In this document: positions 8,691 through 63,206 of the stretch, one piece after another
Layout of the letters: every line of letters starts with the position of its first letter
Position numbering within the stretch: the first letter of the stretch is position 1
NCBI RefSeq assembly: GCF_019649055.1
Contig: NW_026570311.1
Coordinates: 62,001-126,000, forward strand
DNA from: Paramacrobiotus metropolitanus
Lineage: Eukaryota; Tardigrada; Eutardigrada; Parachela; Macrobiotidae
Reading direction: 5' to 3'
DNA: 64,000 bases
The notes under the pieces: model-generated
Database searches by the model: none
What the model was told of the DNA's origin: nothing
Seen by the model: the letters and a program-made list of their open reading frames with translations, nothing else
Translations under genes and position numbers: made by a program

Positions 8691-10257
8691 ATGAAAATCG
8701 CTTCTTTTATTATTTTACTAGCGACAGTTGTACTAGTCGCGGGTGGCGTTTACGATAACCCAAGTAAGTTTAAAAAATGCTTAAAAACGAACCAATTAGA
8801 AGAAAATTTTAGGCCGAGATTGTAAGAAATATGTATAAGCAGTTTCGTTACAGTTAAAAGTTGTCATTCGAGAAACGACCAACCCGATGTTGATCAAGTG
8901 CGTTTCTTGATGGGCTTATCAGCAAATATAAATTACAGATTCAAAGTGTTTGACTGGCACGGGAACTTTTGAACACTGAGTCCGCTTGTTTTTTACAGTC
9001 TCACTGACGCACGAGCTATGCACCAGCCACCGTTTACCGGCCATTCGGTGTCCGTCTGGTAAGTACGGTATGGCCGGCACCATCGTATTCCCAGCGCACA
9101 TCCAACATCACGACTGCCGAGTGTATCTGGCCATACAAGCCGGCTGCCCGCACAATTCATCGGCCGATCAATTCGCCATCTACATCAATGTCAGGTCAGG
9201 CAGATCCTGTTGCAACAATTTTAGAGTGGCCCTATTTTTTTACCTTTGTCTTTTGACCGCTAGAATACAGATACCCGATGTTTGGCCGTCGCATAATTAG
9301 GGAAGATTCTTATCTACGCTCGTCGCATATTAAGTTTAAAGCGACAACTTTACAATGTTAGCGCCGTGGCGTAATTATGCTGCATGGAAACAACGAGTAG
9401 ATGATCCGTTGTGATTATTGCTAAGGTTATCACATATACGTGGTGATAACGATTCTGTCGTTGTGTCCGTGTAGAAAAGCTGAGTTATACGGCAACAGCA
9501 GTCTAATCATGAGTGACCAAGCTACACAATATAATGCCCTGACCCTGACCGGTGCCGGGCATCACGTCAACAGCGATCCCGAATCCCTGGCCCAGTATAT
9601 ACCATATTATTCGCGTGCACCCAATATTTCGATCACATATCGGAGCGGCTTAACCAACGCCAGTGGCGGCGTACGTGTATATCGGTCCATCACCCTCGAC
9701 TACATTGTCGTATTAAAGGGTACAAAACTTTTCTTGAACTGCTTTTGTGTAGACTTATTAGTTCCCGAATTTCAGGGGGATTCGGTGACGGCTACACGTA
9801 CTGTCGCGCTCTCGGTGGGTTTATGGACAACTACTTCCTCTGCAATACGGACAACGGGCGTGTCAATTGCCCCTCGCCGACTTGGTCAAACTACTACGGA
9901 AGCTATAATCCAGCGCTGGGTCGACAAGCCTGTCCGCTGGCCACAGAAGCGCCAAGTACCGCGGAAACACCGGAGGTCATTCATCCGCGCGTAGACTACC
10001 TGTGGGGCATCGGAGCGGCCGTCGTGTTGGCGGGGGCCATCCTCATTCTGTTGGGAGTATTCTGCTCCTCCAAGAAGGCCCATCGACGTCAAATTCAGTA
10101 TGCACAGTTCACCAACAATCCGCATTCCGCTGTACTGGACCACGAAAAAGCGCTACCTCAGACTTTGACTCCCGATGATATTAAAGAATCCTTTAAGCCG
10201 TACGAGCGAAAAGCGGAGAAGCCAGTCGATGTACCAGTTCATGGGGAATTTTTTTGA
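8691..10257 (+). CDS. CLT family copy 1: signal peptide, CUB-like, Cys-rich module, single TM (331 aa)
   Basis: Exons 8691-8763, 8999-9194, 9475-9719 and 9776-10257 join with intron phases 1, 2, 1 into 331 codons plus stop. Exon 1 is a signal peptide (MKIASFIILLATVV). Exons 2-3 form a CUB-like domain: Cys-containing N-part, then a C.VYLAI core, the QFAIYINVR strand at the phase-2 junction and a TLDYIVV end strand. Exon 4 opens with GYTYCRALGGF and FLCNTDNGRVNCP, an LDLa-like Cys/Asp module, then a TM at about residues 247-270 (IGAAVVLAGAILILLGVF), a basic stop-transfer and a 60-residue charged tail without the PPxY motif of its relatives. Type I membrane topology is inferred. Copies 1 and 2 lack the intron that separates the Cys module from the TM in copies 3-6. 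Function unknown. Confidence 0.8.
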
Positions 10258-10923
10258 ACAGAGACTTTGCCCCGTAATGTGTACATACAGACGTTCGAAA
10301 CAGTGTTCAACTTTTTGCAGCTTTGGACGATTCATTAAAACGTTTTACGTAGGGAGCCGTTTTCCATGTTACAGGACCCCTCACTTCAAGCAGCAAGCAT
10401 TCTTTTTCGCTCATGTCTTGCCACCATTCCTACGTGTGTAAGACCATGATACGATTATTGAAAATTCTGGTGTAAGATTGAAAAATAATAATATGTGAAT
10501 GTAATTTTTTGCCGACTATTTGTCTGCGCTGTTTTTGCGTAGTGCCGACTGCTTATTTTTTGAAACTGTTTGCGTGCAGATTTAATACTACGTAAGCGCT
10601 TTCAAGCTAGTTAATTATGATGTCATTCGGGAATGAATAGGGTGACTAAATGGTCAGAGTGCAGGTTAGTAGGGAAAACATCCGCGTTTGATGTGTATCT
10701 GCGTTTTCCGTGCTTGTATAGACGCAAACTTGCGATGTACAAGGCTTGCACTCCGTACTGTATCACACTCGGGTAAACTAGCACATACATCTGCTAATAC
10801 GTATTGCTGTGCAATCAAATCCTCAGGCCTTGCAGGCACGTTCAAGGCACGTCTTGTAGAGTACTTCGTCCATGCACTGTGGAATTATATGCATTATTGC
10901 TATAGGTCGACTTTGAAGGTACC
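10258..10923. other. spacer between CLT copies 1 and 2
   Basis: No supported gene. Open frames here are short; the one covering 10688-11170 merely overlaps the signal exon of copy 2 in the same frame and has no support upstream of 10924. Confidence 0.5.
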
Positions 10924-12388
10924 ATGGAAGCTTTTAGCCATCTTTTCCTGTTCGTTTTATTGGGCATTGAATATTTATCAAGAAATGCTTTGGCTCAGCG
11001 TTATGTTTCGTGTAAGTAATGCCGCTCAAGTATTAATTTTAGAGGGAAACGTTTATACCGTAATGCAAATTCCTCGTTCCAAGATTTCAATTTGGCAGTC
11101 AAGTAATTTCTGCCGCGATTTCTTTGTTAGAATATTTCTCCAGTTATTTTATTCAGCGGCTGTATTTTGAAATATTGATTTTATTTACTAATTTTGGCAA
11201 CATTTTACTTGTATGGATGGTATCGAAGTTAAGTCACACTGTGGACTGGCGTTTTGACAATTACAGATCCGGATCTGGAGAACACGTGCAACCAAACTAT
11301 GGTAATGATGTCGTTGGGGTGCCCTGGTACCTTCAGTGGCACAGCCGGAACCTTCCGCTATTTCGACATCTGGAAGCTGTCCGAAGGAGAGATGTGCTAC
11401 TTTAACGTTTTTATGGACCCTAGCTGCGGCATGTCATCTGCCAAGTTTGCTTTTTATTTCAATATCAGGCATGTAATTTTTGTTCTAAGTTGCCTGCAAT
11501 ACGTGCGACTAGTTGTTGCTCGTAACGTATATATATACAACGTCCCACCACTCATCTCCAAACCCTGCCTGTAGGAAACTCAGGCTTCCGGCGGGCGACC
11601 ATTTGGCAATCTACGAAACCCGAGACGGATCCGCATTTTGATCCAGCAGTTGACTGGCTACATGACTCAGTTCCATAATCCTTCGACCGTCGCGCAAGCA
11701 CTGACATCGTACGCTCAACAGCCATCCTTTACGTTCGAGTACTTCCGCAACTCATCACGTCCCCACGGTCTGGACGAGGTGTACATCGACTTTGTCGTCG
11801 CTGAAGGTACAGCGCCTGAGTTCATTAATGAGACAAAAATTCCTCGGTCTGAATTTTAGTGAGGTTACTGCAGTTAATTATAGCGCGACTATTGCAGATA
11901 CGTCCCATCCCCGCAACATCTGGTGCAAGGCACTGCACGGTTACGTCAGCGATGAATATTTCTGTGACAAGGACGAGGAAAATGATCGGGTCAACTGTCC
12001 GGACAGTTTTGCCGCCAGTGTGAACGGGTACAACCCGGCACTCTGGTGGCAGTGTGAGCGGCAAAGAGCTGTCGCGCCCAGTCACCACGGACTAAACTCT
12101 GGGGACATCAACGGAATCGTCATAGGGATCGCCATACTTTTACTGGTTTTGATCGCGATTGCTGTGACTCCCCCGGCCCGCTTGCTCCAGCTACAGACCT
12201 CCACTGAGAAGACTTCGGCTGAAATCTGCAATATTAGTCGGTCAGTTGATAAAGACGAACACGAACCTTTAATTTCGGCTCCGGCGCTTACGCGAGCGCC
12301 GCCATCGTATGCGGAAGTCACCGCTTCACCGCCACAGGATACCTTTACCATGCCTCAGACAGCGGTACCACAGATACCTAAATATTAA
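10924..12388 (+). pseudogene. CLT family copy 2, full architecture but frameshifted in exon 3
   Basis: Exons 10924-11011 (signal peptide MEAFSHLFLFVLLG), 11267-11468, 11575-11806 and 11898-12388, with the family's phases 1, 2, 1. The exon 2 donor is GC (AG|GCATGT), not GT. Exon 3 begins correctly (RKLRLPAGDHLAIYETRD) but reaches a TGA at 11639-11641; the conserved continuation (LTGYMTQ, QPSFTFEYFR, VYIDFVV) follows in a shifted frame from about 11641. Relative to copy 6 about 13 bases are missing here, so the gap is not a multiple of three. Exon 4 carries the Cys module (WCKALHGY, YFCDKD, RVNCP, NPALWW), a TM (IVIGIAILLLVLIAIAV) and a tail with PPSYAEVTA. AATAAA signals follow around 12450. 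Either a young pseudogene or a consensus error; all other exons look under constraint. Confidence 0.72.
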
Positions 12389-13531
12389 TTGTTGCAGTTC
12401 GAACAACTTTTTTTTCTGCGATACACATTATGTCTGTCAAAATGCCTTAATAAATAAGCTTGCCGTAATAAATATATAAGTTTGATAGCTGATACCGGGT
12501 TCTTTGCTAACACTTATACTTCAAGTACTCATATCTCTCTGGAAACGCAAATTTAAATTATTAGTGCTGTACAGAATGCTTGTTATGTGCTACGCCGGGT
12601 TGCTTATTGAATTTATACTGCTGTAATACGGTAGGTGCGCCATTAACATAACGTCCTCTTCTGCTACTGATTTTTTTATTCTTTGTAATTTACAGTGCGG
12701 TAGTGGGTAGAAAACAAGCAATTTCCGAATGCACATAGATCGAAACAGCTAAGGACTCACAGCAGGTGCGTACATGCATATCGATAAAATTGACAAGTTA
12801 GGTACGCACAAAATAACGCGTGCTGTATACAGGAGTCAGGAGTGTCCGTATGTTACTGTCTGCATTCGACATAAGGGTACCGCTTCTGTTTACAATGATT
12901 ACCGGGCAGTTTATTCCTTGTTCTGCGTGTTGTCGGCACTAATTGTGTTTGCTGCCGATGCGTGCATGACGCTGTTATATTCTTACTGCAATAACTGTTT
13001 ATAGCAGCTGTGTTCGGTGTTCACACTTCATCAAGCTAATGGTCACGGATTTCAATTCATTATTATTTCATTACTGTATTGAGCCATACGCTGGATGTAA
13101 TTCTATGGTGCTCCAATTTCCATCATGTGCCAATGTTTTTGATAGTACATAATTAAACCCGACGCTTTGTTAATGGCTACGTTTTAGCGGGACAACAAAG
13201 AATGGCATATGATTCAGCTGATTCAGCTGGACGCCTGGACGTACCACGCGTTCCCTGAATCAAGTTACATTTTTGTCCTATTATCCTAAACGTATCAGTT
13301 AAAAAAAGTTTACATTCACTTGACCTACAAATCATTAACGCAGCCTTTCGACCCTGAATCGTCTAAATCTCGATCTGATCCTGAAATACTCAGTGAGCGA
13401 TTTAACTGGTGGCGATTCTGCCTTCACCGATCTGTCATTCACCTCGGCTGAAACATTTCGTCCATTTGAGTGCAGATCTCTAAAATCCGACCTAATCAGC
13501 AACTGCAGCTCGTTACTGGCATATTTACAAC
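12389..13531. other. intergenic between CLT copy 2 and the GPCR array
   Basis: After the polyadenylation signals of copy 2 nothing supports a gene. The last few hundred bases are presumably promoter and 5' UTR of the GPCR at 13532; I see no clear TATA box. Confidence 0.45.
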
Positions 13532-14566
13532 ATGAACCGGACTAACACCACCAACGCCACCACTCCCACCGCTTTCGTGGCCGCTTCGGTCCCGTCCATC
13601 GGCATCTGCCGCATCGTCATCCTCATCAGCCGCTTCGTCCTCAACTCCATTGTGCTCAGCGTGTACATTGCTCGGCGCAAAATGCGCACACCTTTCTCCG
13701 TATACATCATGTCCCTCCTAACCAGTAACCTCCTGGATCTCATTCTGTTCTTCCCCTTTATGATCGCCAACAACCTCGGAACGGACGCCAGTCATTTCGT
13801 CTTCGGGGAAACCGGCTGCGCGGTATACGGCTACGGCGTCGCTATAATGCGCTGCTGTTGTTTAGCATCACACGCACTGATCACCCTGAACCGCGCCTGG
13901 GCCATGACCTTTCCCATCTCCTATAAAAACATTCATAGTTCCCGTTTTGCGGTAGCATTATGTGTCGTTGTGATGGTGGGCATTCACAGTTTAATGGTTC
14001 CCGGTCTCGTGTTAAGCGAGCAAACCCGACCGCGTCCCGTGCAGACGTACGGCTGCTGGTACCAAGTGAGCCGCTCAAAATCGATTTTGAACTTATTAAG
14101 CACGATTGGATTCTTTTTATTCTACATTATGCCGGTGATTATCGTGGCGATGTATCCGTATCTGTTCTTCAAATACCTTCAAGCCAAAAAAAGAGTCGCC
14201 GGACAAGAAGGTCACCAGGGAGCCCCGGCCGAGTTGAAGGCTAGCCGCACATTCGGGATTGTCTCCATGCTGTCGTTGTCGATCATTGTTTGTTGGCTGC
14301 CGGAAGAGCTGGTGACGCTACTGATGAGCTACGTGGGCAGCCGGAGCGTCATCCGAGCGTATCCGATTGTCAGTCTGCTGAGCTCGTTTCAAGTGCTACT
14401 CGATCCGCTGTTTCTCCTGGTGAGCTCGCGCGAACTGCGCTACGGGTTGATGAGTATTCTGTGCAACAAGAAGTTCATGGCGGAACGAGCCGGTACATTC
14501 AATATGGTGACGTTTGCGCGCAGCAACACGAAACATCCCACAATGAGCACCCGTATTTACAATTAA
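13532..14566 (+). CDS. type A class A (rhodopsin-like) orphan GPCR, 344 aa
   Basis: A single exon encodes seven TM segments. The N-terminus (MNRTNTTNATT) has NxT sites. TM1 holds the conserved Asn in LNSIVLSVYI; intracellular loop 1 is RRKMRTPFSVYI; TM2 reads SNLLDLILFFPF, placing Asn where the usual sodium-site Asp (2.50) sits; TM3 starts at the disulphide Cys of ETGCAVYGYG and ends NRAWAMTFP in place of DRY; ECL2 has the partner Cys in YGCWYQV; TM6 has CWLPEEL; TM7 has DPLFLLVS in place of NPxxY. The basic third loop (KKRVAGQEGH) ends at SRTFGIVS. It is the first of a same-strand array. An AATAAA lies at 14582-14587, 16 bases after the stop. Ligand unknown; chemosensory or peptide roles are both possible. 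Confidence 0.88.
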   Translation: MNRTNTTNATTPTAFVAASVPSIGICRIVILISRFVLNSIVLSVYIARRKMRTPFSVYIMSLLTSNLLDLILFFPFMIANNLGTDASHFVFGETGCAVYGYGVAIMRCCCLASHALITLNRAWAMTFPISYKNIHSSRFAVALCVVVMVGIHSLMVPGLVLSEQTRPRPVQTYGCWYQVSRSKSILNLLSTIGFFLFYIMPVIIVAMYPYLFFKYLQAKKRVAGQEGHQGAPAELKASRTFGIVSMLSLSIIVCWLPEELVTLLMSYVGSRSVIRAYPIVSLLSSFQVLLDPLFLLVSSRELRYGLMSILCNKKFMAERAGTFNMVTFARSNTKHPTMSTRIYN

Positions 14567-15355
14567 AAGGATGATGATGGAAATAAACAGGCATTTCTCA
14601 CAATACATGTTTCACACAAGTGACACAACCCTTAAGCTTGAATACGGTTTCTTGTTACGTTTCCTCCGTCAAAATGAATGGACTATATAGTATGGTTTCC
14701 TATTAAAAGCGTCCATAGCTGATTTTCGTGACTGTGAGACTAACAAAAAAAGCGACAAAACAAAAAACATCCATTGGTTGAGCCATATTGCACAAAGCTG
14801 CTAAAAACCACCAGTAGTGGAAATCATGGGGATCTAATAAATGGAACTAGTTATTTTAACTTGCAGTGTGTAAATACAAATATATACATGTTTGCAACTA
14901 TTTTACTACAGCGGCGGAACCTGACTTATACCCTTGATGAGACAAATCAACAAGAATTTAATTTTTGCATATGAGGAAAACAAATTAATACCCCACGTTT
15001 CTGTATGCCATCATTAAATTTAAATTTAAAAAGGAAGTCGATCTTTTTCTGATTGGTGTGATGTACACGTAGATTTCTTAGCTTTTCTGTCAGGTTGCGA
15101 ATTTTAGGACGCAGAAGAAAATCAGTGGCCTACGAATACAATTCAAACAGTTTGAACCGAGCACGAGCCGAGCGTTAGTAAATGGAATTATTCATAAACA
15201 ATTAACGTTCGTGCATCACAGCAATATACTTACTTTTTTACCTCTTGTCTGCTTCAAAACGTGCGCTTGTGTGCTGTGCAGATGGCTCATGTTTTCGTAG
15301 GCCTCAAGTGCAGCTATAGATGAAACGCTACACAATACTGGGTCTAAGACTCTCA
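14567..15355. other. intergenic
   Basis: Contains the AATAAA of the preceding GPCR and AT-rich sequence. No gene is supported. Confidence 0.5.
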
Positions 15356-15594
15356 AGCTTGTTTGCTTAGTTTCGGTATAAGGATGGCTCATATTCCATG
15401 CTCGTGCGATATCAAAATAGCTTCTTATTACAGATTATGGGAGAGGGCAAGCATACAGGATGCTGTCGCATGATTTATTACGTATTTTCACTGGAAATCC
15501 ATGTCCCAGGAGACTCTCTAGCACTCGACGACAACAAGCAAATAAGCTAAAGTAAATAACCGTTCAACGACAGACGCTTCTCCCCGATAACCGA
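15356..15594 (+). repeat. 239-bp direct repeat, first copy
   Basis: The segment starting AGCTTGTTTGCTTAG and ending CCCCGATAACCGA recurs 264 bases downstream at 15620-15858. I see only two substitutions between the copies (A/G in ACAGGATGCTG and T/C in TTTTCACTGG), about 99 percent identity, so the duplication is very recent. A 25-base junction made of GATAACCG-like units separates them. Confidence 0.93.
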
Positions 15595-15619
15595 TAACCG
15601 CTTCTCCCCGACAACCGAT

Positions 15620-15858
15620 AGCTTGTTTGCTTAGTTTCGGTATAAGGATGGCTCATATTCCATGCTCGTGCGATATCAAAATAGCTTCTTATTACAGATT
15701 ATGGGAGAGGGCAAGCATACAGGGTGCTGTCGCATGATTTATTACGTATTTTCACCGGAAATCCATGTCCCAGGAGACTCTCTAGCACTCGACGACAACA
15801 AGCAAATAAGCTAAAGTAAATAACCGTTCAACGACAGACGCTTCTCCCCGATAACCGA
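15620..15858 (+). repeat. 239-bp direct repeat, second copy, just upstream of a GPCR
   Basis: Second copy of the 15356-15594 unit. It ends 30 bases before the ATG of the GPCR at 15889, so it doubles what is presumably the proximal promoter or 5' UTR. A TTAATTTGCAG tract immediately before TAAAATG could be a 5'-UTR splice acceptor. Confidence 0.93.
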
Positions 15859-15888
15859 CCGATAAATTCCTCTTTAATTTGCAGTAAA

Positions 15889-16899
15889 ATGAACCGCAGT
15901 AACTCCACTACGAGTTCGACGGCAATTGTGGTGGCAGCCGTTCCGGTTTTAGGAATCATCCGTATTGCCATCCTCATCAGCAGCTTCATCCTCAACGCCA
16001 TCGTCCTCAGCGTATATCTCATGCGACCAAAACTGCGAACGCCCTTCTGCATCTACATAATCTGCTTGTTGAGCAGCAACATTCTGGAACTGCTCCTGCT
16101 GTTTCCCTTCACTATCGCCAACGATCTCGGCACGAACGCCAACCGTTTCGTTTTAGGGAAAATCGGTTGTTCGGTGTATGGATATGGCGTCAGTATAACA
16201 CGATCATGTTGTCTGTGCTCGCACGCATTGATCACCATAAACCGCATCTGGGCCATGACCTTTCCAATCTCCTATAAAAACGTCCATAGTTCGAGATTTG
16301 CAGCTATACTATGTATTTGTGTGATACTGGCGCTACATGCGATTATGATCCAAGGTTTGGTTTTGAGCGAACGGACCCGGCCACGCCCCGTGGAAAAATG
16401 GGGGTGCTGGTACCAAGTGCGCACCGGCTCCATCGCGACCTCCGTTGGATTCCATTCGTTTTTCACGCTGCCGGTGGTTATTGTCGCCACCTATCCGTAT
16501 CTGTTTTGCAAATATTTGAAAGCACGGAAGCAAGTGATGGCGCAGGACGGAAAGAGCGTCGCACCGGCCGATGCGAAGGCCAGCCGGACGTTCGGCGTCG
16601 TGACCATGCTGTCGCTGTGCACCATAGTCTGCTGGTTGCCGGAATTGCTGGTGGTTATCCTGATGAATAATGTGGGGACGCGGGCTATCTTCTGGTCATA
16701 TCCATACGTTAGCTTTTTCAGCTGCTTTCAAGTGCTCTTCGATCCAATGTTCCTGCTGATCACCTCCCGGGAATTGCGCTATGGATTGCTTAGTGTTGTT
16801 TGTGGTAAAACGTATGCGACGGAGAAATTGGGAACATTGCAGATGGTGACGCTGGCGCGCAGCAGTGCCAAGCATCACACAGTGAGCTCGCGTGTGTAA
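15889..16899 (+). CDS. type A orphan GPCR, 336 aa
   Basis: Single-exon seven-TM protein. N-terminus MNRSNSTTSS; TM1 FILNAIVLSVYL; loop RPKLRTPFCIYI; TM2 SNILELLLLFPF, with Glu instead of the Asp seen after NIL in its neighbours; TM3 from KIGCSVYGYG to NRIWAMTFPISY; ECL2 Cys in WGCWYQV; TM6 CWLPELLV; TM7 DPMFLLITS. The ECL2 phrase VEKWGCWYQVRTGS is shared closely with the 18142 gene, making these two the nearest pair by eye. The sequence AGTAAAATGAAC at the start matches that of the 21760 gene, both with a possible splice acceptor directly before it. The upstream region is the duplicated 239-bp unit. Confidence 0.88.
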   Translation: MNRSNSTTSSTAIVVAAVPVLGIIRIAILISSFILNAIVLSVYLMRPKLRTPFCIYIICLLSSNILELLLLFPFTIANDLGTNANRFVLGKIGCSVYGYGVSITRSCCLCSHALITINRIWAMTFPISYKNVHSSRFAAILCICVILALHAIMIQGLVLSERTRPRPVEKWGCWYQVRTGSIATSVGFHSFFTLPVVIVATYPYLFCKYLKARKQVMAQDGKSVAPADAKASRTFGVVTMLSLCTIVCWLPELLVVILMNNVGTRAIFWSYPYVSFFSCFQVLFDPMFLLITSRELRYGLLSVVCGKTYATEKLGTLQMVTLARSSAKHHTVSSRV

Positions 16900-18141
16900 T
16901 GTAATTGTTTTGCGTTTCTGCGTCTGCCTTGCGTTGGCTAACATGTAATGCAGGGTAATGTTGGTTTCTTAGCGGTTCGGCGCTCGACTACATCAACATT
17001 CACCAGTTTGCTTTACGAATACTGATAGACATAGACGGTGCAACGCCGGTATCACATTGTAAGGGATAATCATTTGGACGTTGACTGTTGCATGACATTT
17101 CCGGTTTCTGGCGAGCGTAGCAGTTATCAAAGCCGTATCGTAACGGTGCTTGCTGAACATGCATTTGCTACGGCATGACGTTACTGTGGTATTATTTTTA
17201 TAAACCGTTCTTGCAATTGCTTAAACCTTGCTTGCATGCTGGTATAGTTTTGACTTTCGTATTTCTCACACTTCGGCCAACCGCCAAGTGATTTAACTGT
17301 TAATCCTTATTTTAGAATTAAACCCGAAATCCTTAGTGTAATGTTGTATTACCAGTTGCACTTCAAAGTTCGCAAACTGCAAACTTCCCCGAAAAATAAT
17401 CTGATCATTACAAATTAGCAACATAAGTAGCTGGAGTGTGTTGTTGGAGAGGGTGTTTTACGCTCATTGATTATACTCGTAGCACGAGTACGACTTTAAG
17501 ATAGGTACAGTACAAAAATGTGGACAAGACTGACATCTGTGCATGCAGCAAGAATCAAATGTAATCAATACATGTAAGTCTTAAGAGAAATTTGTAACGA
17601 AATATCCGATAATTGGTGGAGACAGTCGATTGGTAAAAAATGTAAATATAGTTCAGTGACAGTGCAAAAGGCTTAAATGCGGGCAACAGCATTGTACTCT
17701 GTAAATCGGCATCGATCTGGAAGTATTACAGGCGACTGGTTAGTTTTCCCGTTGAAACATCAACAACAGCCAGCAGCATGAAAAGCGTATGCATACCGGG
17801 ATGTTGGGGGGAAATAAAGAAAATCTCCAGCTGTGCCAACAAAGGCGCGGCTCCAATTACGCCCAGCAGAAAGATCAGAATAATGGCTAGCAGAGGCATC
17901 CAGACGATCAAAACAACCATTATTCACTGCTGACTTGTCGTGTGTAATATAGAGTACAGTCGTGGTAGCCGGTAGGTATCCCGTATCCGTTACGATAATC
18001 ACATGCCTCGTGGAATTTTTGTTTGCTCATTACAATTCGCCGCTCGTTACGTGCTTAGTACACAATTTGTGCAAAAATAACGGGAAAAATTGCATTCCAT
18101 CTGTTCCAAATTTTTTTGTGGCACAAGGCAAAATATTAAGG
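16900..18141. other. intergenic; possible small hydrophobic ORF on the minus strand
   Basis: The only candidate is minus 17726-17920, an ATG-initiated 64-codon frame starting MVVLIVWMPLLAIILIFLLG, strongly hydrophobic, which could be a signal-peptide exon or random. It has no paralogue in the window and no clear downstream exon. Otherwise nothing is supported. Confidence 0.35.
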
Positions 18142-19152
18142 ATGAACCGGAGCAATATCACGGTTCCCGGTCCTCTGGTGGTTGCCTCAGCCCCGGCCAT
18201 CGGAATGTGCCGAATCGGGATTTTAATCAGCAGTTTTATTCTCAATTTTACCGTTCTCAGTGTGTATATTCTGCGACCTAAAATGCGCACTCCCTTTGCG
18301 GTGTACATAATTTCCCTGTTAATCAGCAACATTCTGGATCTTCTCCTTTACTTTCCCTTCATGATCGCCAACAACATCGGAACGGACACGAATCACTTCG
18401 TATTTGGTGAAACCGGCTGCTCGGTGTTCGGTTACGGCGTGTCGATATCACGTGCCTTTTGCCTTTGTTCACACGCATTGATTACCCTCAACCGCATCTG
18501 GGCCATGACCTTTCCCATATCGTACAAAAACCTTCACGGATACCGGTTTGCTGTGATGTTGTGCAGTGGTGTTTTTATCGCGATTCACGCCCTGATGATC
18601 CAAGGACTTGTACTGAGCGAGCGAAGCCGACCGCGCCCAGTTGAAAAATGGGGATGCTGGTATCAGGTTCGCACGGGCTCAGTTGCCAATTCCATTGGGT
18701 TCCATTTGTTTTATACGGCGCCGGTACTGATTGTGGCCACCTATCCGTATCTGTTTTTCAAATATCTGCAGACCAAAAAACGCATTATGGCGCAAGATGG
18801 CCACCATGGACTGCACGATAAGACGGTGAATAAAACTTTCGGGATTGTATCGATGCTGTCGCTGTGCACGATTATCTGCTGGGTGCCGGAAGACGTAGTG
18901 ACGGTTTTGATGAATAACACTGGAAGCAGAGCCATCATCCGATCGTATCCGATTGTCAGCTTGATCAGCTCGTTCCAGGTGCTGCTGGATCCGCTGTTTC
19001 TCCTGATTAGTTCCAAAGAATTGCGTTATGGTTTAATGAGTATCGTGTGTAGAAGAAGGTTTATGGCGGACCGAGCGGTGTCTGTGAAAATGATGACATC
19101 CGCTCGCAGTAACACCAAGCCTGTACGTCCAACTTCCAGTACAAAGTTTTAG
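18142..19152 (+). CDS. type A orphan GPCR, 336 aa
   Basis: I chose the ATG at 18142 (MNRSNITVPG) over an in-frame ATG 60 codons upstream because every type A paralogue starts with MNR or MNS about 25 residues before TM1. The single exon encodes TM1 FILNFTVLSVYI, loop RPKMRTPFAVYI, TM2 SNILDLLLYFPF, TM3 ETGCSVFGYG to NRIWAMTFPISY, ECL2 WGCWYQV, TM6 CWVPEDVV and TM7 DPLFLLISS. The third loop (KKRIMAQDGH) differs in length only slightly from its neighbours. Intronless, intact. Confidence 0.88.
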   Translation: MNRSNITVPGPLVVASAPAIGMCRIGILISSFILNFTVLSVYILRPKMRTPFAVYIISLLISNILDLLLYFPFMIANNIGTDTNHFVFGETGCSVFGYGVSISRAFCLCSHALITLNRIWAMTFPISYKNLHGYRFAVMLCSGVFIAIHALMIQGLVLSERSRPRPVEKWGCWYQVRTGSVANSIGFHLFYTAPVLIVATYPYLFFKYLQTKKRIMAQDGHHGLHDKTVNKTFGIVSMLSLCTIICWVPEDVVTVLMNNTGSRAIIRSYPIVSLISSFQVLLDPLFLLISSKELRYGLMSIVCRRRFMADRAVSVKMMTSARSNTKPVRPTSSTKF

Positions 19153-20031
19153 CATGCGCTAGGCATTTTCATTACTTTATGGGTCAATTCAGCGGCAGAG
19201 AGAAGAGGATAATTTTTTTTTGGTAAAGAACGAGCGCTTTGATGATCTTCTTTCTTTCAATGATACGCTGCCTGAAAGCATATACGTACAAATAAAGTGA
19301 CATGTAACAATATTCAGTACGTTTACAAATGGCCATGCCTGAATTACATGCAGTAGCATATCTTAATATAGCTAGCGTCTCAAAACTCCGGCACCAAATA
19401 AAACTTGTTCTGTACATGCTTGTTAAATTCAGCAAGCTGTTATAAAGACAAACGAAATACAAGAAAGGATGAGTTAGGTGGTGGGCGAATCGAAAGATAA
19501 CGGGCAAACTCGCATCACAGGCATTCGGTTATTACCCTTGACCTTATAGCTCGGGATAGTAGCGGACGGCGGTCTTACATTTTGAGTAAATGAAATTAAA
19601 TTACGTTTTGAATGAAATGGTAGAGATGCTTGCTATGCGCAACCGGGAACATGGAACTACATAGCGAACTATCTGCCTGGTACGTTATAGTATTTATATC
19701 AGTTGCATTTCTGTCTGCCAGTATTCTCAACGGAAGCGTCCCAAAGGCATCGAGTAGCATCTATTTGAAGACGTTTCTGTGAAAATAATTCTGCCGCAGT
19801 AGCACAACGCGTGTTTACTGCTCAGTGTGCAAATTTATATGGCGTTTATGTTCCACATTTTCCCCATTCGAAACTCCAATCAGCATGTGATCGATGGTAT
19901 TCTAAAGACAACTGGAAACGTTAAAACTGCCAGCGCACGGCTGGAAAATACCACATTTGTGAGGAACGTGTTGTAATCTTGAAGACTCACTCAAAAAGAT
20001 TATTCAGTCTGCACAGAGCACAAGAGAAATA
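19153..20031. other. intergenic
   Basis: No gene supported. Open frames on the minus strand (19184-19507) lack motifs. Confidence 0.5.
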
Positions 20032-42527: not shown

Positions 42528-42630
42528 TGCATGATGCAGGGATGCTGTTTAATTATATCTGTTCACCAAATCTGATGTACAGTCTACAGATATAAATTAA
42601 ACGGCAACCCTGCATTACGCATTGTCGCAA

Positions 42631-42990: not shown

Positions 42991-43362
42991 TCATAAGTAT
43001 GAAATCTAGAAACATGCTCTGTCCATTTGGCTGGCAATCGCTTCGTGACTACGGTACACGTACAGAATTCACTGCACTCGTCAAATTACCTGACTGCGCC
43101 GTTAGATACAAATAATACACGATTTAAGCGTTGGTTCATGATGAACGACGCTGCGTCATAGAAGCTTAAAATCAAGGGCATTTATGATGATCATGAATAC
43201 TGTACATCAACACTGAACTCCCATTAAACCGAAAAACAGCTAACGTTGCATGTTTTGGCGAACAGGATATGAAACACTGCAAAAATTTTAATTTCAAAAG
43301 TTTGGTATTTTCAAGCATGAATGCTGATGCTGCATTATCGCCGGTTAAAAGTGACAGGATAA

Positions 43363-52853: not shown

Positions 52854-53522
52854 TTATTCTTTTACATATGCCCGGTTCAAAACATTCTGACTCGGTAAAC
52901 TGTGAGGCCGGTCGTAGGAGCGGTGCCCCACAAACGTGTGCACATCCAGCCCATCCGCACCGGTCCCGGGTACATTGCGCCACGCCGAGAAATCGTGCTT
53001 TCCACCGGACTTCTTATCATTCCAGGCTTCCTCCCCGGCGACGGCTGCCAGTACGTATTCGGTCTTCACACAGCGCAGTTCCGGGAACTCGTTGGGCGAG
53101 GCATCCCGGCGACGCGAGCGCAGCGCCACATGTCCCAGGCAGGTGTACCCGGCAGTGGGCACCGGGTTGTAGATGGTCACATCCAAATCCGCCCCGGTTT
53201 TCTCGTCGTCATACACCCATTCCAGACGACTGGGTGGGCGCAGGGCATCCTCGTGTCCCGGCAACGCTTTGACGAGGACGGCGTAGTCGTGGCCGGAGTT
53301 GATGACATGTCCTTGCTTGGCGTAGTGACCGAGGTAAAAGTATCCTAGAGGAAGGCCGACGGGTTGCCAGAAGGAACCGTCCCGCGTGGCACCACTGCCT
53401 TTATCGGTCCAGACCATTTCCAGGTGACGGTGGATCTGCGTCTGCAGGATCGGTTGTCGTGCGAGACTAGCAGCGAACGTCCCACTCGCCAACGCCAGTA
53501 ACATGACCACTGATGAGTACAT
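52854..53522 (-). CDS. secreted Vps62-like protein, 222 aa
   Basis: ATG at 53522; two upstream in-frame codons have no ATG. A signal peptide (MYSSVVMLLALASGTFA) precedes a Vps62-type repeat fold: VWTDKGSGATRDGSFWQPVG followed by GYFYLGHYA, then EWVYDDEKTGADLDVTIYNP and AGYTCLGHVAL, then AWNDKKSGGKHDFSAWRNVP and VHTFVGHRSY. The recurring 'W.D..SG...D...W.P ... GY..LGH' pattern occurs three times, as in Vps62 (PF06101-type) proteins. Known members are poorly understood; fungal Vps62 was named from a sorting screen. A signal peptide and no TM imply secretion or a lumenal location. The gene is GC-richer than its surroundings. TATTTAAA sits about 135 bases upstream of the ATG. Single exon, seemingly complete. 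Confidence 0.82.
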   Translation of the reverse strand: MYSSVVMLLALASGTFAASLARQPILQTQIHRHLEMVWTDKGSGATRDGSFWQPVGLPLGYFYLGHYAKQGHVINSGHDYAVLVKALPGHEDALRPPSRLEWVYDDEKTGADLDVTIYNPVPTAGYTCLGHVALRSRRRDASPNEFPELRCVKTEYVLAAVAGEEAWNDKKSGGKHDFSAWRNVPGTGADGLDVHTFVGHRSYDRPHSLPSQNVLNRAYVKE

Positions 53523-54479
53523 TTCCACCAGCAGATTAAAATAAGGCTCTTGAAAAGACTGGCAGCAACTATAACAAAATACGCTGATAGCGGCGTCCGT
53601 ATACGGTAGCTCTGAACGATGCAGTTAGTTATGGTGGCTGTGAGGCAACGCGGTGTTTAAATACTTCCACCGACCGCGCCGGTACCCTGGCGGCGTGCTA
53701 TCAGATGGCGGAAAGAACAGTGGAATGAACGGCGCTTCTCAAAAGCCGCTGATGGTATCCATCCATTTCCAGTATTAAGCGGTGCTGGTGAGTCATTTTC
53801 GGTGTATGTATATGCATATTCCAGTCTTAATGAGTCGTCAGTAGTTTTTGCAGCCTAATTAGTCGCTTCTTCCGATTAAAAATTTTATCGGATATTAGGA
53901 TCTGCTTTTCACACAACACTTACAATACCCGACTACTGTACACTGGAAACATTTGCCGCAGCACACGTACTATTTAATGACACGGTCTTTTTCTCACAAG
54001 TGAGTGGTTTAATTCATATTTAGAAACTAAAGTCAGATCCTTCGAAGTACGTACAAGGTGCGCAGAAAATTTCATTGCTTATTTTCGCACAGAGAAAACT
54101 ATGATAAGTTATTACCCTCTAAATGCGGGAAGTTAGCGTCTAGTTACAAGCTAGCCCGTATATGAAATTTCGTCCAAGTATCGGCAAGAGGCTAGATGAA
54201 ATTCGTGTTCATTTGTTCATCAGCTGAGGGCGCACATGTAGACACTATACAGTGTACATGGAAAGACATCAACATCATAATTAATTTTACTACAGTACAA
54301 ATACTCTAGGAGACCAGGCGACAGTTTCACGGCACTAAGCACGTTTAAATTATGGAGAATGTACAAAATCAACCCTTTCACAATTGTGATCGCACTCCAC
54401 AAATAATCTTTTGACATTGAATCTGCTACTTGCTAGGCGTCTAATTAGGTGTGGACTATTCTGCGCGTTCTGGTTGCAT
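53523..54479. other. intergenic: promoter side of Vps62-like gene and 3' flank of CLT copy 4
   Basis: TATTTAAA (minus strand, about 53655-53662) is a candidate TATA-like box for the Vps62-like gene. No other feature. Confidence 0.4.
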
Positions 54480-57982: not shown

Positions 57983-59773
57983 TTCCAAAGGTGTTCCCAA
58001 AATTTCAAATTAATGTCGTAATTTAAATGTGTACAGGAAGTCATGCGATGAGGAAATACCGCCACTAAGCCTTGCTTTACAAATGCCGTTTAACCTTGCA
58101 CACACGATTCAAACGTTTATGCACGGTCTTTCTGTACACACTTTATAAATGCTGATCTTGCACATACATTTAACACCTGCTACTTGATAAACATGACCGC
58201 GAAATCAAGCTAATCGATAAATAGCCGGTCAAAGTCCTCTGTTAAAATTTCAAGCGATAACGGAAGTAAAGTTTGTCATATCGTAGTAACTGAAGTAGGC
58301 TCGGCACAGCGGATGCATTACACATTACCAATAACTTGATATAAAAAATCGTAAGTTTTAATTTCCGATATTTTTAACTTGCCGGTGTGCATAATCTTTA
58401 AGCATTACCTTTCTAACTTTTTTTCACTCATGTTTTTATGTTTTGCTGTCATCTTTCATAAACATTAGCCGTCATAATTATTTTTGCTATAGAGTAGTGT
58501 TGATGATCTTTTTAAAAGGTCATCAAAAGCGGCATCGTATTTATATATTTATTCAATTTTTGAGCATGAGATTCGCCAACCCGATGTGCGGTCTTTCACT
58601 GCAGTATCAGCAGGTGTTCGCAATTTCATTTCAAAAATATCTGGTAACGCTTTCATGGTTTATTAAGGAGCCAAACCCATTAACGGGCCATGTATATGAT
58701 GAATATAAATCAATATATGTACTAGTATATGAGGATGAATATATGATAAGATCATCATATATATTCATTCCTACATGCATCATATATTCATCATATTCTT
58801 GTTAATATAATTTTTGTTTACCATTCATATTATATATGATGATGAATATACGAGTGTTCGTATGATGAATGTACAGTATGTATGGATCGTTGCCCATGAA
58901 ACGTATTTTTTCTGAGCGGAACATGTGTATGATAGGCGTAATTACATATAAATATTCAGTTAAACTGTTAGAAACTCAAACGCGGTTTGTCGGCTTAACG
59001 GAATTAAACTCCATTCACTTCCTTGAAATTCAGTAAAATAAAAATCAATATTATTCCCACATTAATTCAAAACAATCAATGAATTACTTATGTGCGAAAG
59101 ACAAGTGTATCAGAATAATATTGTATGTAGAAGTATTACAGATTGTGTTCGATCCCTTTCACGTCCACTGTACACACTACACAATACTTTATCTTCCAAG
59201 TTGTTGAGCATCTTTATTGGGTTTTCCTCTGCATCCATTGATCCCGTATTCCCTAAATAAACATCACCAACAACACGAACTTTCTTGTAACAATGTTGAT
59301 ACAGTACAATCCTACTAAACCCACTGTATACACTACATGTACCAACACTGCGCAGATGTTAACTGCTGCTGCCACACGACAATGCAACGCGACCTCCAAC
59401 ATAATACTCCTCTTCTTCCCGGTTTCCACCCAGTCTCCCTTTACCAGTGCCTCTTGACGGGCTTTAGCATTGAAACGCTGTGACAGTCTCCGTTTAAGAT
59501 GCCTTTTGTAATCATTTATTCAACGTAAATTCAATAAATTACGCATCCCAGCCGCCTTCAGTATCGCTGAAGTAGAGCGCATAATGGATGTGACGATGAT
59601 GGAAACTGTACACTATTCAGCGCATTAGCACATTGTGGTTGGCCTGGCGATCTTTGTGACTTCTTTATTGAGTGCCAGGATATTTATACGGTAGCACATT
59701 TTTGTATGTGACACATTTTTTACGCTCTACAGTTTTTTTCATTTACGCTTTTAACGCCTTACCATTTTCTAAT
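57983..59773. other. 1.8 kb intergenic with an AT-rich palindromic tract
   Basis: Around 58690-58870 ATATATGATGAATAT and its reverse complement alternate (GAATATATGAT, ATCATCATATATATTC, ATCATATATTCATCAT, ATGATGATGAATAT), a low-complexity self-complementary tract. No supported gene; an ATG upstream of and in frame with the GPCR at 59774 (59672) is not conserved. Confidence 0.5.
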
Positions 59774-60724
59774 ATGAATTCTTCCCACAGTAATTTCACA
59801 TCACCAGTATTTCCTTTTGATATTAAGTGGAATGCTTTCGCCATCACCCGCTTAATCGTGGCCATCGGCAGTTTCCTTTTCAACACCAACGTCTTGACAA
59901 TTTACTTAATCCGTCCAAACCTGCGCACGCCGTTTTCCGTTTATCTCATCGCACTGTTAATCTCCAATTTATTAGAAACCGTTTTATATTTCCCTTTTGC
60001 CATAATCGCCAATCTCGGAACGCCGAAAAACCGGTTTTTCTTGAGCGAAACCGGCTGCGTCGCTAACATATACGGAACAACGATCATCCGCAGCTTATGT
60101 CTGTGTTCCCACGCGTTGATTACGTTAAACCGTGCATGGGCTATGACCTTTCCCCTCAGCTACAAAGAACACCACGGACCGCGGTTCGCTAGCGGTCTGT
60201 GCGTGGCACTAGCTGTCAGCGTCCACGGTTTTGGTATCCCGGCGATTCTAGCCAACGAGAAGACCCGGCCGCGGCCAGTCGAGCGCTACGGCTGCTGGTA
60301 CAAAGTGCAATCCGACTCGGCCATCAACGGCATCGCCTACATCATGTTCTACATCCTCCCGTTGTGTATTGTAGCCGCGTATCCGTACCTTTTCTACAAG
60401 TATATGCAGGGCCGAAATAAGGTGCTACAGGATGCCCGTTCGGAGAGCTGGGCACCGACACGCGGCCTGACCAAGTCATCGGCCAATAAGAACCGGACCT
60501 TCCGCATTGTCACGCTGCTGTCGGCGTTCACTATTGTCTGCTGGCTGCCGGAACAAGTGATCATCGTGACGCAGATGGCCGGCGGGGAGAGGTATATCCT
60601 CACGGCATATCCCATTGCCAATCTCGTCAGCGGCTTTCAGACACTCCTGGATCCGATTTTTCTCCTGATCAGCTTGAAGGATCTGCGTGACAGCTTCTTT
60701 AATTTGTGCCGTTCCAAGAAGTAG
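59774..60724 (+). CDS. type A orphan GPCR, isolated member, 316 aa
   Basis: ATG at 59774 (MNSSHSNFTS), chosen over an in-frame ATG 34 codons earlier by comparison with paralogues. Single exon. TM1 FLFNTNVLTIYL; loop RPNLRTPFSVYL; TM2 SNLLETVLYFPF (Glu after NLL); TM3 ETGCVANIYG to NRAWAMTFPLSY; ECL2 YGCWYKV; third loop longer than in the array genes (about ten extra residues around SWAPTRGLTK); TM6 CWLPEQVI; TM7 DPIFLLISLKDL. The C-terminal tail is shorter than in the array (ends CRSKK). It lies 33 kb from the array, between CLT copies 5 and 6. AATAAA at 60774-60779. Intact. Confidence 0.87.
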   Translation: MNSSHSNFTSPVFPFDIKWNAFAITRLIVAIGSFLFNTNVLTIYLIRPNLRTPFSVYLIALLISNLLETVLYFPFAIIANLGTPKNRFFLSETGCVANIYGTTIIRSLCLCSHALITLNRAWAMTFPLSYKEHHGPRFASGLCVALAVSVHGFGIPAILANEKTRPRPVERYGCWYKVQSDSAINGIAYIMFYILPLCIVAAYPYLFYKYMQGRNKVLQDARSESWAPTRGLTKSSANKNRTFRIVTLLSAFTIVCWLPEQVIIVTQMAGGERYILTAYPIANLVSGFQTLLDPIFLLISLKDLRDSFFNLCRSKK

Positions 60725-61604
60725 CCACATGGTTTTGGTGCAAATAGACAACTGATTCTGCGACTTCACGGCTAATAAAGCGCACAATGTGGGGCATGCT
60801 GTAAATGTTCTCGGTGCAAGGAGATATGAGAAGTACACCGGAAGTGTGCAATGTAAATACAGCGTGAATTAAACAACTCAACTGTGCAAACAAAAACATT
60901 CAATACATGTATTAAAGATACTGCAGTAGTATCGGATTGAGTTGCTTGATAATCATGCGAACATACACATGCACGGCAGATCGATAATTTAATTGGTCCG
61001 CTTGGATGGTATTCCTCAAGTACCGGTGCCCGCAGCAGAAGAAGGATATTAAACAGCGACTTATGCAGATGCAGCGGCAGTTTTCACGCAAGACAGCAGT
61101 GTCTTCATCTCCACGATCGCCAGAAATTAAGCAGCAGCTGCGGTGTCATCCTATGTTTCCGGGAATACTCCAGACTTTTCATTCCAGTAACCAACAAAAT
61201 TAATAATTTCGCGTAATGGATATGTGCAATGGACCTTTATAAAGTCTTCTGCGAGTGCAAAATCTCCCAGTAAAGCCAAAGTATTACTTTTCCGCGTTTC
61301 GGTAGTCAATAAATGCGTACTTGTAGATGCGGGTTTTATTTTTTGTAAGTTTGTAGTAATCCATCGCTGGTTGGTTCTCCGCAGTTTGCGCGGGCTTTAC
61401 TAGCAATCTTTGTTTTCACCGCTGTCGTGCAGTAACATGCGCATTACTGCAGTACACCGCAAGCCCACGTTCAAGTCTACATGTTCACATGAAACTGTGA
61501 CATAATTTTTATAAACAAAAAGATATTTAAGGCTGAAATAGCACCTGAGGAATTTTATGAGAGATCGCTTCATTAAGCATCGGCATGCAGCCGCATTGCG
61601 AGGG
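60725..61604. other. intergenic: 3' flanks of GPCR (plus) and CLT copy 6 (minus)
   Basis: TTTTATTTTTT near 61333 may supply the AATAAA of CLT copy 6 on the minus strand. No gene supported. Confidence 0.45.
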
Positions 61605-63206
61605 TCAGTATTTTGGCACTGTAGCCTGTGGCATTGTAAGAGTAACTTGGGGCGACGAGGCAGTGACTTCCTCATAGGACGGCGGTGCACCCATAAAGGG
61701 TGGAGCCGGCCCAGTAAGTACTGGGGTTGCCACATACGACGAATGCAACTCAGCGAATGTTTGGTTGCCCACCACAACCGGACGGCTGGTGTTGACGTTG
61801 CCGCCTGTTGAAGTCAAAACGATGGGTCGGCTAGGGGCTGTCCTTCGATTAGAAGAGCAGGCAGAGGAAGCAAAGGCTATATATGATCAGGATCACAAAG
61901 AAGACAACTCCCACAGTGATGCCCGTAATAGCTCCAGCACTCAGGTCATCTTCTACAAAACAAATTGGTTAACTAGGTTCCGTCTTTCACGTGCAGGTGC
62001 ATTTATAAAAGTAATAAAACGTTCTCTTCCCTCACAGGTTATGCATGTCTGCCCTGGAGGGAACAACAACCAATATACAAAGCAGCCGTATGTGCCTAGT
62101 GCCTACCGTAATCATAATTATTATTGTTGTTCCAGTAGCGCGTCGACCGATCCCAGTAATACGGTGTTGTCGATGCGGTCTGGCATTGTCGCCAAAGCGC
62201 CGGATTCCGTCCCGTTATGGAGGGACTGAAACTGGACGGACAGTTAACACGATCAGTCAAACCGTCCTTATCACAGATGAAGTCATCGTGCACATATCCC
62301 CCAAGCGCAGCGCAAAAGGCGTTGCGTATGTGAGAAGTGCCTATAACAAAGAGTTAGTAATGAAAATCGATAACTTTTTGACAAACAATACCAGCAGCGT
62401 ACTTTCTACGATAACGAAGTCAATGTACGCTTCATGAAGGCCGCTGTACGGAGATGAGCTGCGGAAGTACTCGAACGTGAAAGACGGCTGTCTAGAAAAT
62501 GCTGTCCTGGCTTGCGCGACGGACGTAGGGTTATATGACTGGGCGAGGTAGCCGGTTAATTTCTTGATCATGGTGGACGAGTTTCCCATTACGGAATCAC
62601 GGGTTTGGTAAATTGTCAGGGTGTCCTCGGATGGCAGAATAAATTTCCTTAATTTTATAAAAAAGGTTATTTGCAGTTGTAGATTCAGTTGTGCAGGCGG
62701 TCTTCCAGAATCTTCGCACGTACCTGATATTGAAATAAAACGCAAACTGGTTACTCGCCGATGTTCCGCAGTTCGAGTCTAACGTTACGTTAAACGAGCA
62801 ACGTCCGGCAGGCAGATTGCCGATATAGTAGTAACGAAAGGTTCCCGCTCTGCCGGTGTACATATATGGGCAGACTACTGTGAGGCTTTCGTTGCACGCT
62901 GTCTCCAAATCCCGGTCTGCAAAAAGCGGAAATTATAATACTTAAAATAATTATTTCCATAATGCACGCTACGGATATAACAGCAGTATAGCTGGAAGAG
63001 GCCCTTTAGTTTTACTCCGTTATCCATAGTGACACTTGTATGCGAACTGCGAAATAGCTGTTTCAGGCTGATGTGTTTACTTACTAAATGGAACCAAAGT
63101 TAAATTGCTGGTACTTACATGAATCATAATACTGAGCCGTGGCGCTTTTAACGAAACACAAAAATCCCAATCCACAAATAAGAATAACAACTCTTCCAGC
63201 ACACAT
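61605..63206 (-). CDS. CLT family copy 6 (287 aa as read; conserved tail out of frame)
   Basis: Exons 63206-63119 (signal MCAGRVVILICGLGFLCFV), 62916-62724, 62647-62403, 62340-62107 and 61952 on; phases 1, 2, 1, 1. CUB-like part: ETACNESLTVVCP, GRAGTFRYYY, CSFNVTLDSNCG, QFAFYFNIR, DTLTIYQTRD, KKLTGYL, SFTFEYFR, YIDFVIVE. Cys module: FCAALGGYVHDDFICDKDG, DRVNCP, NPALWRQC, then an unusual Asn-rich stretch before the TM. The TM (ITGITVGVVFFVILIIYSLC) ends in CLLF and a TAA at 61851-61849. Beyond it, in the next frame, an open 80-codon tail runs to 61605 with PPSYEEVTA and a VPKY end, matching the tail of copy 2. So the stop is either a recent frameshift or a sequence error. Confidence 0.76.

Follow-up and report, generated by a model that had tools for sequence, protein, structure and literature searches.

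Six genes of one family, here called CLT, lie in the window, the stretch of 64,000 nucleotides of the Paramacrobiotus metropolitanus genome that was analysed (Table 1). The exons of all six copies were located where an earlier, sequence-only reading had placed them, the gene structures being predictions from DNA. Intron phases 1, 2, 1 were common to the six copies, and an additional phase-1 intron preceded the membrane helix in C3 to C6 and was missing from C1 and C2, which bears out the exon structure described in that reading. In C2, intron 2 could be spliced only from a GC donor (GCATGT), and the frame of exon 3 shifts once by a single base. The 57-nucleotide intron 2 of C3 was open and in frame, and an open frame runs from 43777 to 44244; across the family the introns were mainly closed or out of frame, with 3 of 39 cases open and in frame for intron 2 and 0 of 40 for intron 3. 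A one-base frame break just after the membrane helix of C6 left a stretch resembling the C2 tail (PPSYEEVTAS) in another frame. The breaks in C2 and C6 could reflect real damage or assembly error; the published genome is reported to be a Canu assembly from nanopore reads (PMC11191345). CAHS matches in the genome point to a eutardigrade. A signal-like exon, as judged by a hydrophobicity rule, was present in 43 of the 60 pieces that contain exon 2 (54 loci and the six window copies).

Table 1. CLT genes and an exon-4 relic in the window, with exons in the order of transcription
Feature	Positions	Strand	Description
C1	8691..10257	+	331 aa; exons 8691-8763 (signal), 8999-9194 and 9475-9719 (predicted CUB-fold domain), 9776-10257 (4-Cys module, helix, tail)
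C2	10924..12388	+	exons 10924-11011, 11267-11468, 11575-11806, 11898-12388 (4-Cys module, helix, tail with PPSY)
C3	43363..44414	-	257 aa; exons 44414-44315, 44246-44069, 44011-43776, 43698-43540, 43463-43363
C4	54480..55787	-	296 aa; exons 55787-55697, 55614-55413, 55294-55059, 54906-54727, 54661-54480
C5	56361..57982	-	308 aa; exons 57982-57901, 57627-57450, 57338-57079, 56895-56728, 56599-56361
C6	61605..63206	-	exons 63206-63119, 62916-62724, 62647-62403, 62340-62107, 61952-61605
Exon-4 (4-Cys module) relic	5358..5486	-	decayed, with stops; E 0.002, reading frames

The six genes are members of a far larger family of tardigrade cell-surface proteins. Among 71 loci fetched from the same genome, 46 had all three ectodomain exons open with phases 1, 2, 1, as did five of the six window copies, a recurrence beyond chance. 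The scan, made with the family's own profiles (at least 25 bits per exon, GT or GC donors allowed), thereby gave 51 copies, nine of which had a GC donor somewhere. Beyond the fetched loci the copy number comes from a hand count of exon-4 rows, which gave at least about 65 loci. Exon-4 genome searches and the 51 three-exon copies thus ruled out the initial view of a six-copy family. The five window copies included in a tree did not form a clade, and C1 was a divergent copy on a long branch. Hmmscan returned no named Pfam family for five window proteins (E 1), three spliced domains from other loci or three exon-4 peptides (both E 10). Contigs of prokaryote genomes, searched for relatives, yielded 28 pattern matches with 0 confirmed. 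As no paper on such a family was found in searches of the open-access PMC literature, the family is apparently undescribed, as first supposed, and we use the term provisionally.

Some copies are interrupted: a frame break or a stop occurs in each of C2, C6, L002, L003, L006 and L050, and none of the exons recovered from L051, L052, L053 and L055 was complete. That most CLT genes are duplicates in decay that no longer have a function is nevertheless very improbable, given the 51 copies with three open exons and dN/dS values well below 1. In 29 pairs of close copies, dN/dS ranged from 0.18 to 0.58 with a median of 0.42. It was below 1 in every pair, so that gene-wide there was no sign of positive selection.

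Exons 2 and 3 of one member, L009, which lies about 62 kb outside the window, were modelled with a pLDDT of 79.9 and a pTM of 0.78. A 20-residue intron stretch was left in the model, and 15 residues there fell below 50 pLDDT; C3 was the only window copy in the underlying alignment. With VIA-align, which covers only the 1000 chains ranked highest by Foldseek, all 50 rows listed were CUB proteins matched over their CUB ranges (Z 7.8-10.1), the CUB status being taken from titles or domain maps. The best row was C1s, with a Z of 10.1 and an rmsd of 2.5 Å over 107 residues at 11% identity. Foldseek itself gave nine matches at E ≤0.001, three of them neuropilin chains with TM-scores of 0.46-0.51 (query length) and six others. 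Aligned by hhalign with CUB domains of the same genome, the family profile scored P values of 0.0018 and 0.00095 (probabilities of 15 and 22%) in the expected CUB register. A first model from three alignment rows (pLDDT 49) had shown a nine-strand sandwich that matched a mixture of folds, among them enterotoxin C-domains and CUB; it was not counted as evidence.

The Pfam CUB profile (PF00431) was silent, both in hmmscan of five window proteins (E 1) and three spliced domains from other loci (E 10) and in a genome search, where none of the 52 matches listed fell at CLT loci. The nematode CUB-like profile PF02408 had no match in the protein scans; an exon-wise genome search with it was empty, as were its controls. 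In 41 of the 51 copies, exon 2 encodes four cysteines. In the hhalign register the third of these aligns with CUB C2, and the second, by our reading, with C1. Exon 3 had no cysteine in 41 copies and one in the other ten, so the second CUB disulfide (C3-C4, in the second half of the domain) was absent from these 51 copies. The predicted model supports the assignment of exons 2 and 3 to a CUB fold split by the phase-2 intron, in line with the sequence-only reading.

The VIA-align rows include the spermadhesins 1sfp (Z 8.9) and 1spp (Z 8.7), which are themselves CUB folds, and CLT proteins might accordingly serve reproductive recognition between sperm and egg or between mates. The expansion of the family would fit, and P. 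metropolitanus is reported to be gonochoristic and to have some 2,000 male-biased genes, which concentrate at 29 loci (PMC11191345). The CUB domains listed all match about equally (Z 7.8-10.1), however, and neither the PY tails nor the lectin-module fusions described below are gamete-specific, which makes a reproductive role quite unlikely.

For the module encoded by exon 4, the proposed likeness to LDLa was not sustained. Four cysteines were found in 42 of 51 copies and LDLa spacing in none. Three exon-4 peptides scanned at E 10 matched neither LDLa (PF00057) nor any other Pfam family, and hhalign gave a probability of 3% against LDLa. A genome search for LDLa, in which the best 150 of 292 candidates were scored, listed 149 matches with none at CLT loci. 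On cysteine count and spacing, together with the silence of the profiles, an LDLa identity was rejected. The exon-4 profile had a weak match to thrombomodulin (1fge; E 0.75, 17 positions), and a weak sequence match to an L-rhamnose-binding lectin (5h4s) was seen at E 0.57. Matches of the full-length window profile to PDB chains were confined to membrane-helix stretches. The pattern D.DG..DR.NCP may resemble thrombospondin type 3 repeats, on which Pfam was silent for the exon-4 peptides.

Helices and tails, the latter noted in the sequence-only reading merely as variable, contain recurring motifs. Of 39 helices, 23 contained GxxxGxxxG, against an average of 1.2 after shuffling, and of the 31 tails that were 20 aa or longer, 16 contained PPxY, against an average of 2.0; neither count was reached in any of 2000 shuffles, which ignore kinship among copies. 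Helices were chosen with a small bonus for G...GI, and a repeat without it returned the same 39 helices and the same counts. Strict PPxY was absent from the other 15 long tails. Among the window copies, C2 and C5 have it and C1, C3 and C4 do not: the tail of C5 carries MPSY and PPAY, that of C4 has VPSY in its place, and the C3 protein ends directly after the helix with almost no tail. By its sequence, the tail PPxY is a putative docking motif for ubiquitin ligases that CLT proteins often carry. WW domains are present in the genome, for instance several in one frame on contig C40.

Such tails in 16 of 31 long cases would also suit sorting adaptors that have no outside ligand and pair with membrane proteins, for example the adjoining GPCRs, using PY tails and NEDD4-type ligases to route them to endosomes. 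A sorting role of this kind is reported for the transmembrane proteins Commissureless and PRRG4 (PMC12101832, PMC5578492). Relatives of one window GPCR are dense on both contigs with large CLT arrays, with 12 of the 110 matches listed on C91 and 11 on C79, contigs that together make up 0.75% of the genome; since 113 of 1033 GPCR candidates were scored, the matches listed favour close relatives. Yet 87 of the 110 lie on other contigs, and the two tandem arrays may be linked by history alone. Adaptors would, moreover, need neither a diversified ectodomain of some 200 residues nor secreted forms, and we regard this explanation as unlikely.

A secreted architecture, new here, has the ectodomain run into a C-terminal module with a conserved R-x-K-R site, and the same module is elsewhere fused to C-type lectin domains. 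Of the 62 pieces that contain exon 4, a set that includes the six window copies, nine had a secreted-type module in place of the helix; type I membrane topology therefore holds for the window copies and not as the sole form of the family. Exon 4 and the module shared one open frame in six of the nine, and three loci were broken, by a stop in L002 and L050 and by a frame break in L003. The secreted forms sit in two separate parts of the tree. All 14 C-terminal modules that fit the search pattern had the R-x-K-R site. On contig C68, L073 combined the module with a Lectin_C match in one open frame, and L074 and L076 had lectin exons upstream of it.

CUB and C-type lectin domains occur in matrix proteins too, and together with purifying selection this could point to adhesion or matrix proteins of cuticle, egg shell or tissue surfaces that multiplied by tandem duplication and have no part in recognition. 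Against this, an ectodomain that is short and has only one CUB domain, a helix zipper and PY tails look like features of a receptor, and many copies share one contig, so that we find a matrix function rather improbable.

CLT proteins may instead be recognition receptors; here we infer both ligand and function. The explanation we favour, tentatively and as close to an even chance, is a lineage-expanded eutardigrade repertoire of recognition receptors with a CUB fold, some of them soluble and others membrane-bound and sorted by ligases. The CUB-fold domain, aided by the 4-Cys module, would bind an extracellular partner, and GxxxGxxxG zipper helices would pair the receptors. PPxY tails could then recruit NEDD4-type WW-domain ubiquitin ligases, which would ubiquitinate the receptor complex and cause it to be internalised or sorted. 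A furin-like protease would cut the secreted forms, which would be soluble counterparts. Copy number and divergence would allow for many different ligands, the most plausible being surfaces of microbes or self/non-self surfaces. A bolder version, which we consider doubtful, is a two-armed repertoire with no known parallel in other animals, in which dozens of CUB-fold heads would be borne on dimerising, ligase-sorted receptors or released as soluble proteins. Its soluble arm would be one furin-cleaved module shuffled onto CUB-fold and C-type lectin heads, the whole would act in immunity or self/non-self recognition, and its arrays would be linked to chemoreceptor-like GPCRs.

A large receptor-like family invisible to Pfam shows that the annotation of tardigrade genomes is incomplete, and structure prediction from exon-wise family alignments found a fold that profile searches had missed. 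The tail PPxY, the helix GxxxGxxxG and the secreted architecture with its R-x-K-R module are new here. The parts of the family lead to the predictions that the tails bind WW domains, that secreted forms are cut at R-x-K-R and that the CUB-fold heads bind something. If microbes or self are recognised, the family would give the study of immunity or mate recognition in tardigrades a concrete starting point.

Among known systems, CUB receptors (neuropilins, Neto, Kremen) and CUB proteases (C1r/C1s, MASP) share the CUB fold with CLT, as judged by the predicted model. These receptors and proteases are extracellular and ligand-binding, and neuropilins and Neto have type I topology. CLT differs from them in lacking a Pfam CUB match and the second-half cysteine pair, and in its single domain with four cysteines in exon 2, joined but unassigned 4-Cys module and multigene array. 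The term 'CUB-like domain' is used in C. elegans innate-immunity papers. The nematode CUB-like proteins (CUB_2, PF02408) are likewise ecdysozoan proteins with a CUB-like domain, but CLT has no PF02408 match in the protein scans. To our knowledge, Commissureless, PRRG4 and NDFIP have no CUB fold and form no large family. They are reported to be membrane proteins that bear PY motifs and work together with NEDD4-type ligases, whereas ligase binding by CLT is only predicted. The secreted C-type lectins of L073, L074 and L076, finally, share their C-terminal module with secreted CLT and differ from it in the recognition domain.

Three-frame reading of the coding strand around each copy yielded exon models for all six CLT genes that the sequence-only reading had placed in the window (copies C1 to C6), with the intron phases 1, 2, 1 in 6/6. 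Exon 1 carries the signal, exons 2 and 3 the predicted CUB-fold domain and exon 4 a cysteine module, followed by a membrane helix and a tail. A further phase-1 intron upstream of the helix is present in C3-C6 and absent from C1 and C2. Splice sites are GT-AG in all six copies with the sole exception of the second donor of C2, which is GC. Fully open models were obtained for C1 (331 aa), C3 (257 aa), C4 (296 aa) and C5 (308 aa); C2 and C6 have one frame change each, within exon 3 and directly after the helix, respectively. A CAHS query found 20 matches in the genome (best 1.6e-69), which fits its very probable identity as P. metropolitanus. The published P. metropolitanus genome is a Canu assembly built on nanopore data (PMC11191345), so that single-base errors are plausible, and the two frame changes may be either assembly errors or real damage.

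Coordinates of the CLT genes and of features in and around them (positions without a prefix are those of the window)
Feature	Location	Strand	Basis
CLT genes C1-C6	8691-63206		three-frame exon models
Decayed exon-4 relic	5358-5486	(-)	genome search and reading frames
Open frame running through the short intron 2, copy C3	43777-44244	(-)	
Open frame running through the short intron 2, locus L009	L009:980-1462	(-)	
Open frame running through the short intron 2, locus L011	L011:933-1418	(-)	
Rhodopsin-type GPCRs packed beside CLT arrays	13496-31328, 59672-60721; C79:427043-481127, 580186-583743		
Vps62-domain gene among CLT copies	52857-53624	(-)	E 4.3e-13
Weak Ig_3 match adjoining C3	45646-46470	(-)	E 6e-4, below cut-off
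C-terminal module match, window's contig	C91:160587-160934	(-)	
Tandem pair of C-terminal modules in one frame	C32:465880-466191 and 466342-466665		

The family is not confined to six copies, as had been claimed. Exon-by-exon genome searches (E ≤10) gave 150 matches with C5 as query and at least 159 with C6, on the window's contig C91 and on C79, C73, C58, C13, C31, C56, C68, C53, C27, contig C6 and C388. Family-derived profiles were then run over the fetched loci to locate the three ectodomain exons, with phases and splice sites fixed (GT or GC donors) and at least 25 bits required of each exon. Three open ectodomain exons were found in 51 copies, namely 5/6 window copies and 46/71 loci, the 71 including several fragments and five loci (L064, L068, L073, L074, L076) chosen only for a C-terminal module and having no CLT exon. 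In the window C2 failed at exon 3, and the relic has none of the three exons. A GC donor occurs somewhere in 9/51 copies, and a signal-like exon 1 with a phase-1 donor in 43/60 pieces having exon 2. In an earlier intron check, intron 2 was open and in frame in 3/39 cases and intron 3 in 0/40; exon joins are therefore needed. Retention of intron 2 in C3, L009 and L011 would leave the protein unbroken.

In a tree of the 51 copies, from which C2 was left out, the window copies are scattered: C3 lies beside genes of contigs C79 and C56, C4 pairs with C5, copy C6 falls within the main group of 22, and C1 forms a long branch of unsure placement. For 29 pairs with dS <0.9, dN/dS ranged from 0.18 to 0.58 (median 0.42), with no sign of gene-wide positive selection. 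The copies are constrained and evolve fairly fast.

The first domain had been read as CUB-like and split by the phase-2 intron. Pfam searches with five window proteins (E ≤1) and with three spliced domains from other loci (E ≤10) returned only sub-threshold matches to unrelated families, and the tested sequences fail the CUB_2 profile as well. The CUB profile finds 52 matches genome-wide and 0 at CLT loci, so this silence is no search failure. In C3, L009 and L011 the short intron 2 has no stop and keeps the frame, so the domain can be read there as one exact frame. A first structure model, built on those three sequences alone, was of low quality (pLDDT 49.2), with mixed structural matches. 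A second model, of L009, drew on 54 further exact rows, among them frames of single exons from other loci and copies of L009 and L011 trimmed at their ends, and reached pLDDT 79.9 and pTM 0.78 with nine strands, its 15 worst residues falling in the intron-derived stretch. When VIA-align 2 re-aligned the 1000 PDB chains ranked highest by Foldseek, CUB-containing proteins filled 50/50 rows among the matches listed, from C1s (Z 10.1, rmsd 2.5 Å over 107 aligned residues, 11% identity) at the top to Neto2 (Z 7.8) at the bottom; judged by title or domain map, the aligned ranges are those of the CUB domains. Foldseek alone placed neuropilin chains at ranks 1 and 3 and an unrelated protein at rank 2, neuropilins making up 3/9 hits at E ≤0.001. 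In profile-profile comparison, the family and CUB domains of the same genome aligned in the CUB register at P 0.0018 (probability 15%) and P 0.00095 (22%). We predict a CUB fold from the model. Four cysteines are present in exon 2 of 41/51 copies and none in exon 3 of 41/51, which leaves the domain without the second disulfide of CUB.

The likeness of exon 4 to LDLa did not hold. Its core, C.AL.GY..(4-7 residues)..C..R.NCP, is present in 48/51 copies and four cysteines in 42/51, with LDLa spacing in 0/51. LDLa has at least 149 genome matches (best 150 of 292 candidates), none listed at a CLT locus, and hhalign against LDLa gave a probability of 3%; LDLa identity was rejected on all three counts. 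Three exon-4 peptides had no Pfam match, and PDB sequences gave a marginal match only. Judged by sequence, exon 4 is a separate, unassigned four-cysteine module.

Among 62 exon-4 pieces (56 loci and six window copies), 39 are followed by a membrane helix as proposed, 9 have a secreted-type module instead and 14 have neither within the piece fetched. Membrane anchoring as the family's sole form was thus not borne out. Tails differ, as had been noted, and share a recurrent motif: PPxY, a candidate docking site for WW domains of NEDD4-type ubiquitin ligases, occurs in 16/31 tails of at least 20 residues (21 motifs; shuffle mean 2.0 tails, 0/2000 reaching 16), and GxxxGxxxG in 23/39 helices (shuffle mean 1.2, 0/2000), although the copies are related, the events not independent and the shuffle tests overstate the case. 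Helix choice gave a small bonus to a G...GI pattern; without it, helices and counts were the same. PPxY contexts differ between contigs (PPPYP on C79, GAPPSYEEVTAS on C91). Among the window copies, PPxY is present in C2 and C5 and absent from C1 and C3; C4 has VPSY, and the PPxY of copy C6 sits past the frame break. A subgroup on contig C79 (L058, L060, L061) has cysteine-rich cytoplasmic tails, e.g. RRRCRKCSCSCRPRKIC, replacing PPxY. WW domains gave 19 genome matches; a single frame on contig C40 contains three complete domains and a partial one.

In the secreted layout, exon 4 is continuous in one open frame with a C-terminal module of ~115 residues without a helix (L001, 0.6 kb beyond the right edge of the window, L004, L005, L033, L036, L054); damaged versions have a stop (L002, L050) or a frame break (L003). 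The secreted forms included in the tree occupy two places, L001, L003, L005 and L033 in one and L036 separately. The C-terminal module has 88 genome matches, and three of its peptides matched no Pfam family. Of the modules in the fetched loci, 14 fit the search pattern, and R-x-K-R lies between cysteines 2 and 3 in 14/14. The module is itself a large four-cysteine family, in some frames as tandem pairs. On contig C68, one open frame of L073 contains both the module and a Lectin_C match. In L074 and L076 lectin exons come before the module (best E 2.2e-9); a lectin piece in the frame of the module itself is missing from L074 and scores under the cut-off in L076, a locus with exons for two C-type lectin domains. 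Recognition heads of at least two kinds have therefore been combined with this module.

The four GPCR frames tested beside CLT copies all match 7tm_1, and 2/4 also pass the nematode chemoreceptor profile cut-off. CLT proteins may be sorting adaptors for these neighbouring receptors. Another GPCR of the same array has at least 110 relatives at E 1e-20 or better (best 113 of 1033 candidates); among the matches listed, 12 lie on C91 and 11 on C79, against ~0.8 expected by the contigs' size share, and 87/110 lie on other contigs. Both families expand in tandem, so the association reflects array linkage and few independent events.

CLT proteins may also be reproductive or matrix proteins. The best-fitting reading is a repertoire of recognition receptors: a single soluble C-terminal module is common to two types of recognition head, and the heads vary whereas the motifs of helix and tail keep recurring. 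The sequences show a secretion signal, a predicted CUB fold, a helix, motifs, two architectures, expansion and constraint. Such receptors would bind ligand through the CUB-fold head, their helices would pair, and the tail might recruit NEDD4-type ligases and lead to internalisation, by likeness to Commissureless and PRRG4, for which two papers report such a role (PMC12101832, PMC5578492). The soluble forms would be processed at R-x-K-R and serve as counterparts of the membrane receptors. The family appears, provisionally, to be undescribed, as suggested: no Pfam family matched, and an open-access literature search found no paper on such a family. By the modelled fold CLT groups with CUB proteins, yet it stands outside the Pfam CUB and CUB_2 profiles. 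Compared with known CUB proteins, CLT is without the second disulfide and without a Pfam CUB match, and is alike in predicted fold.
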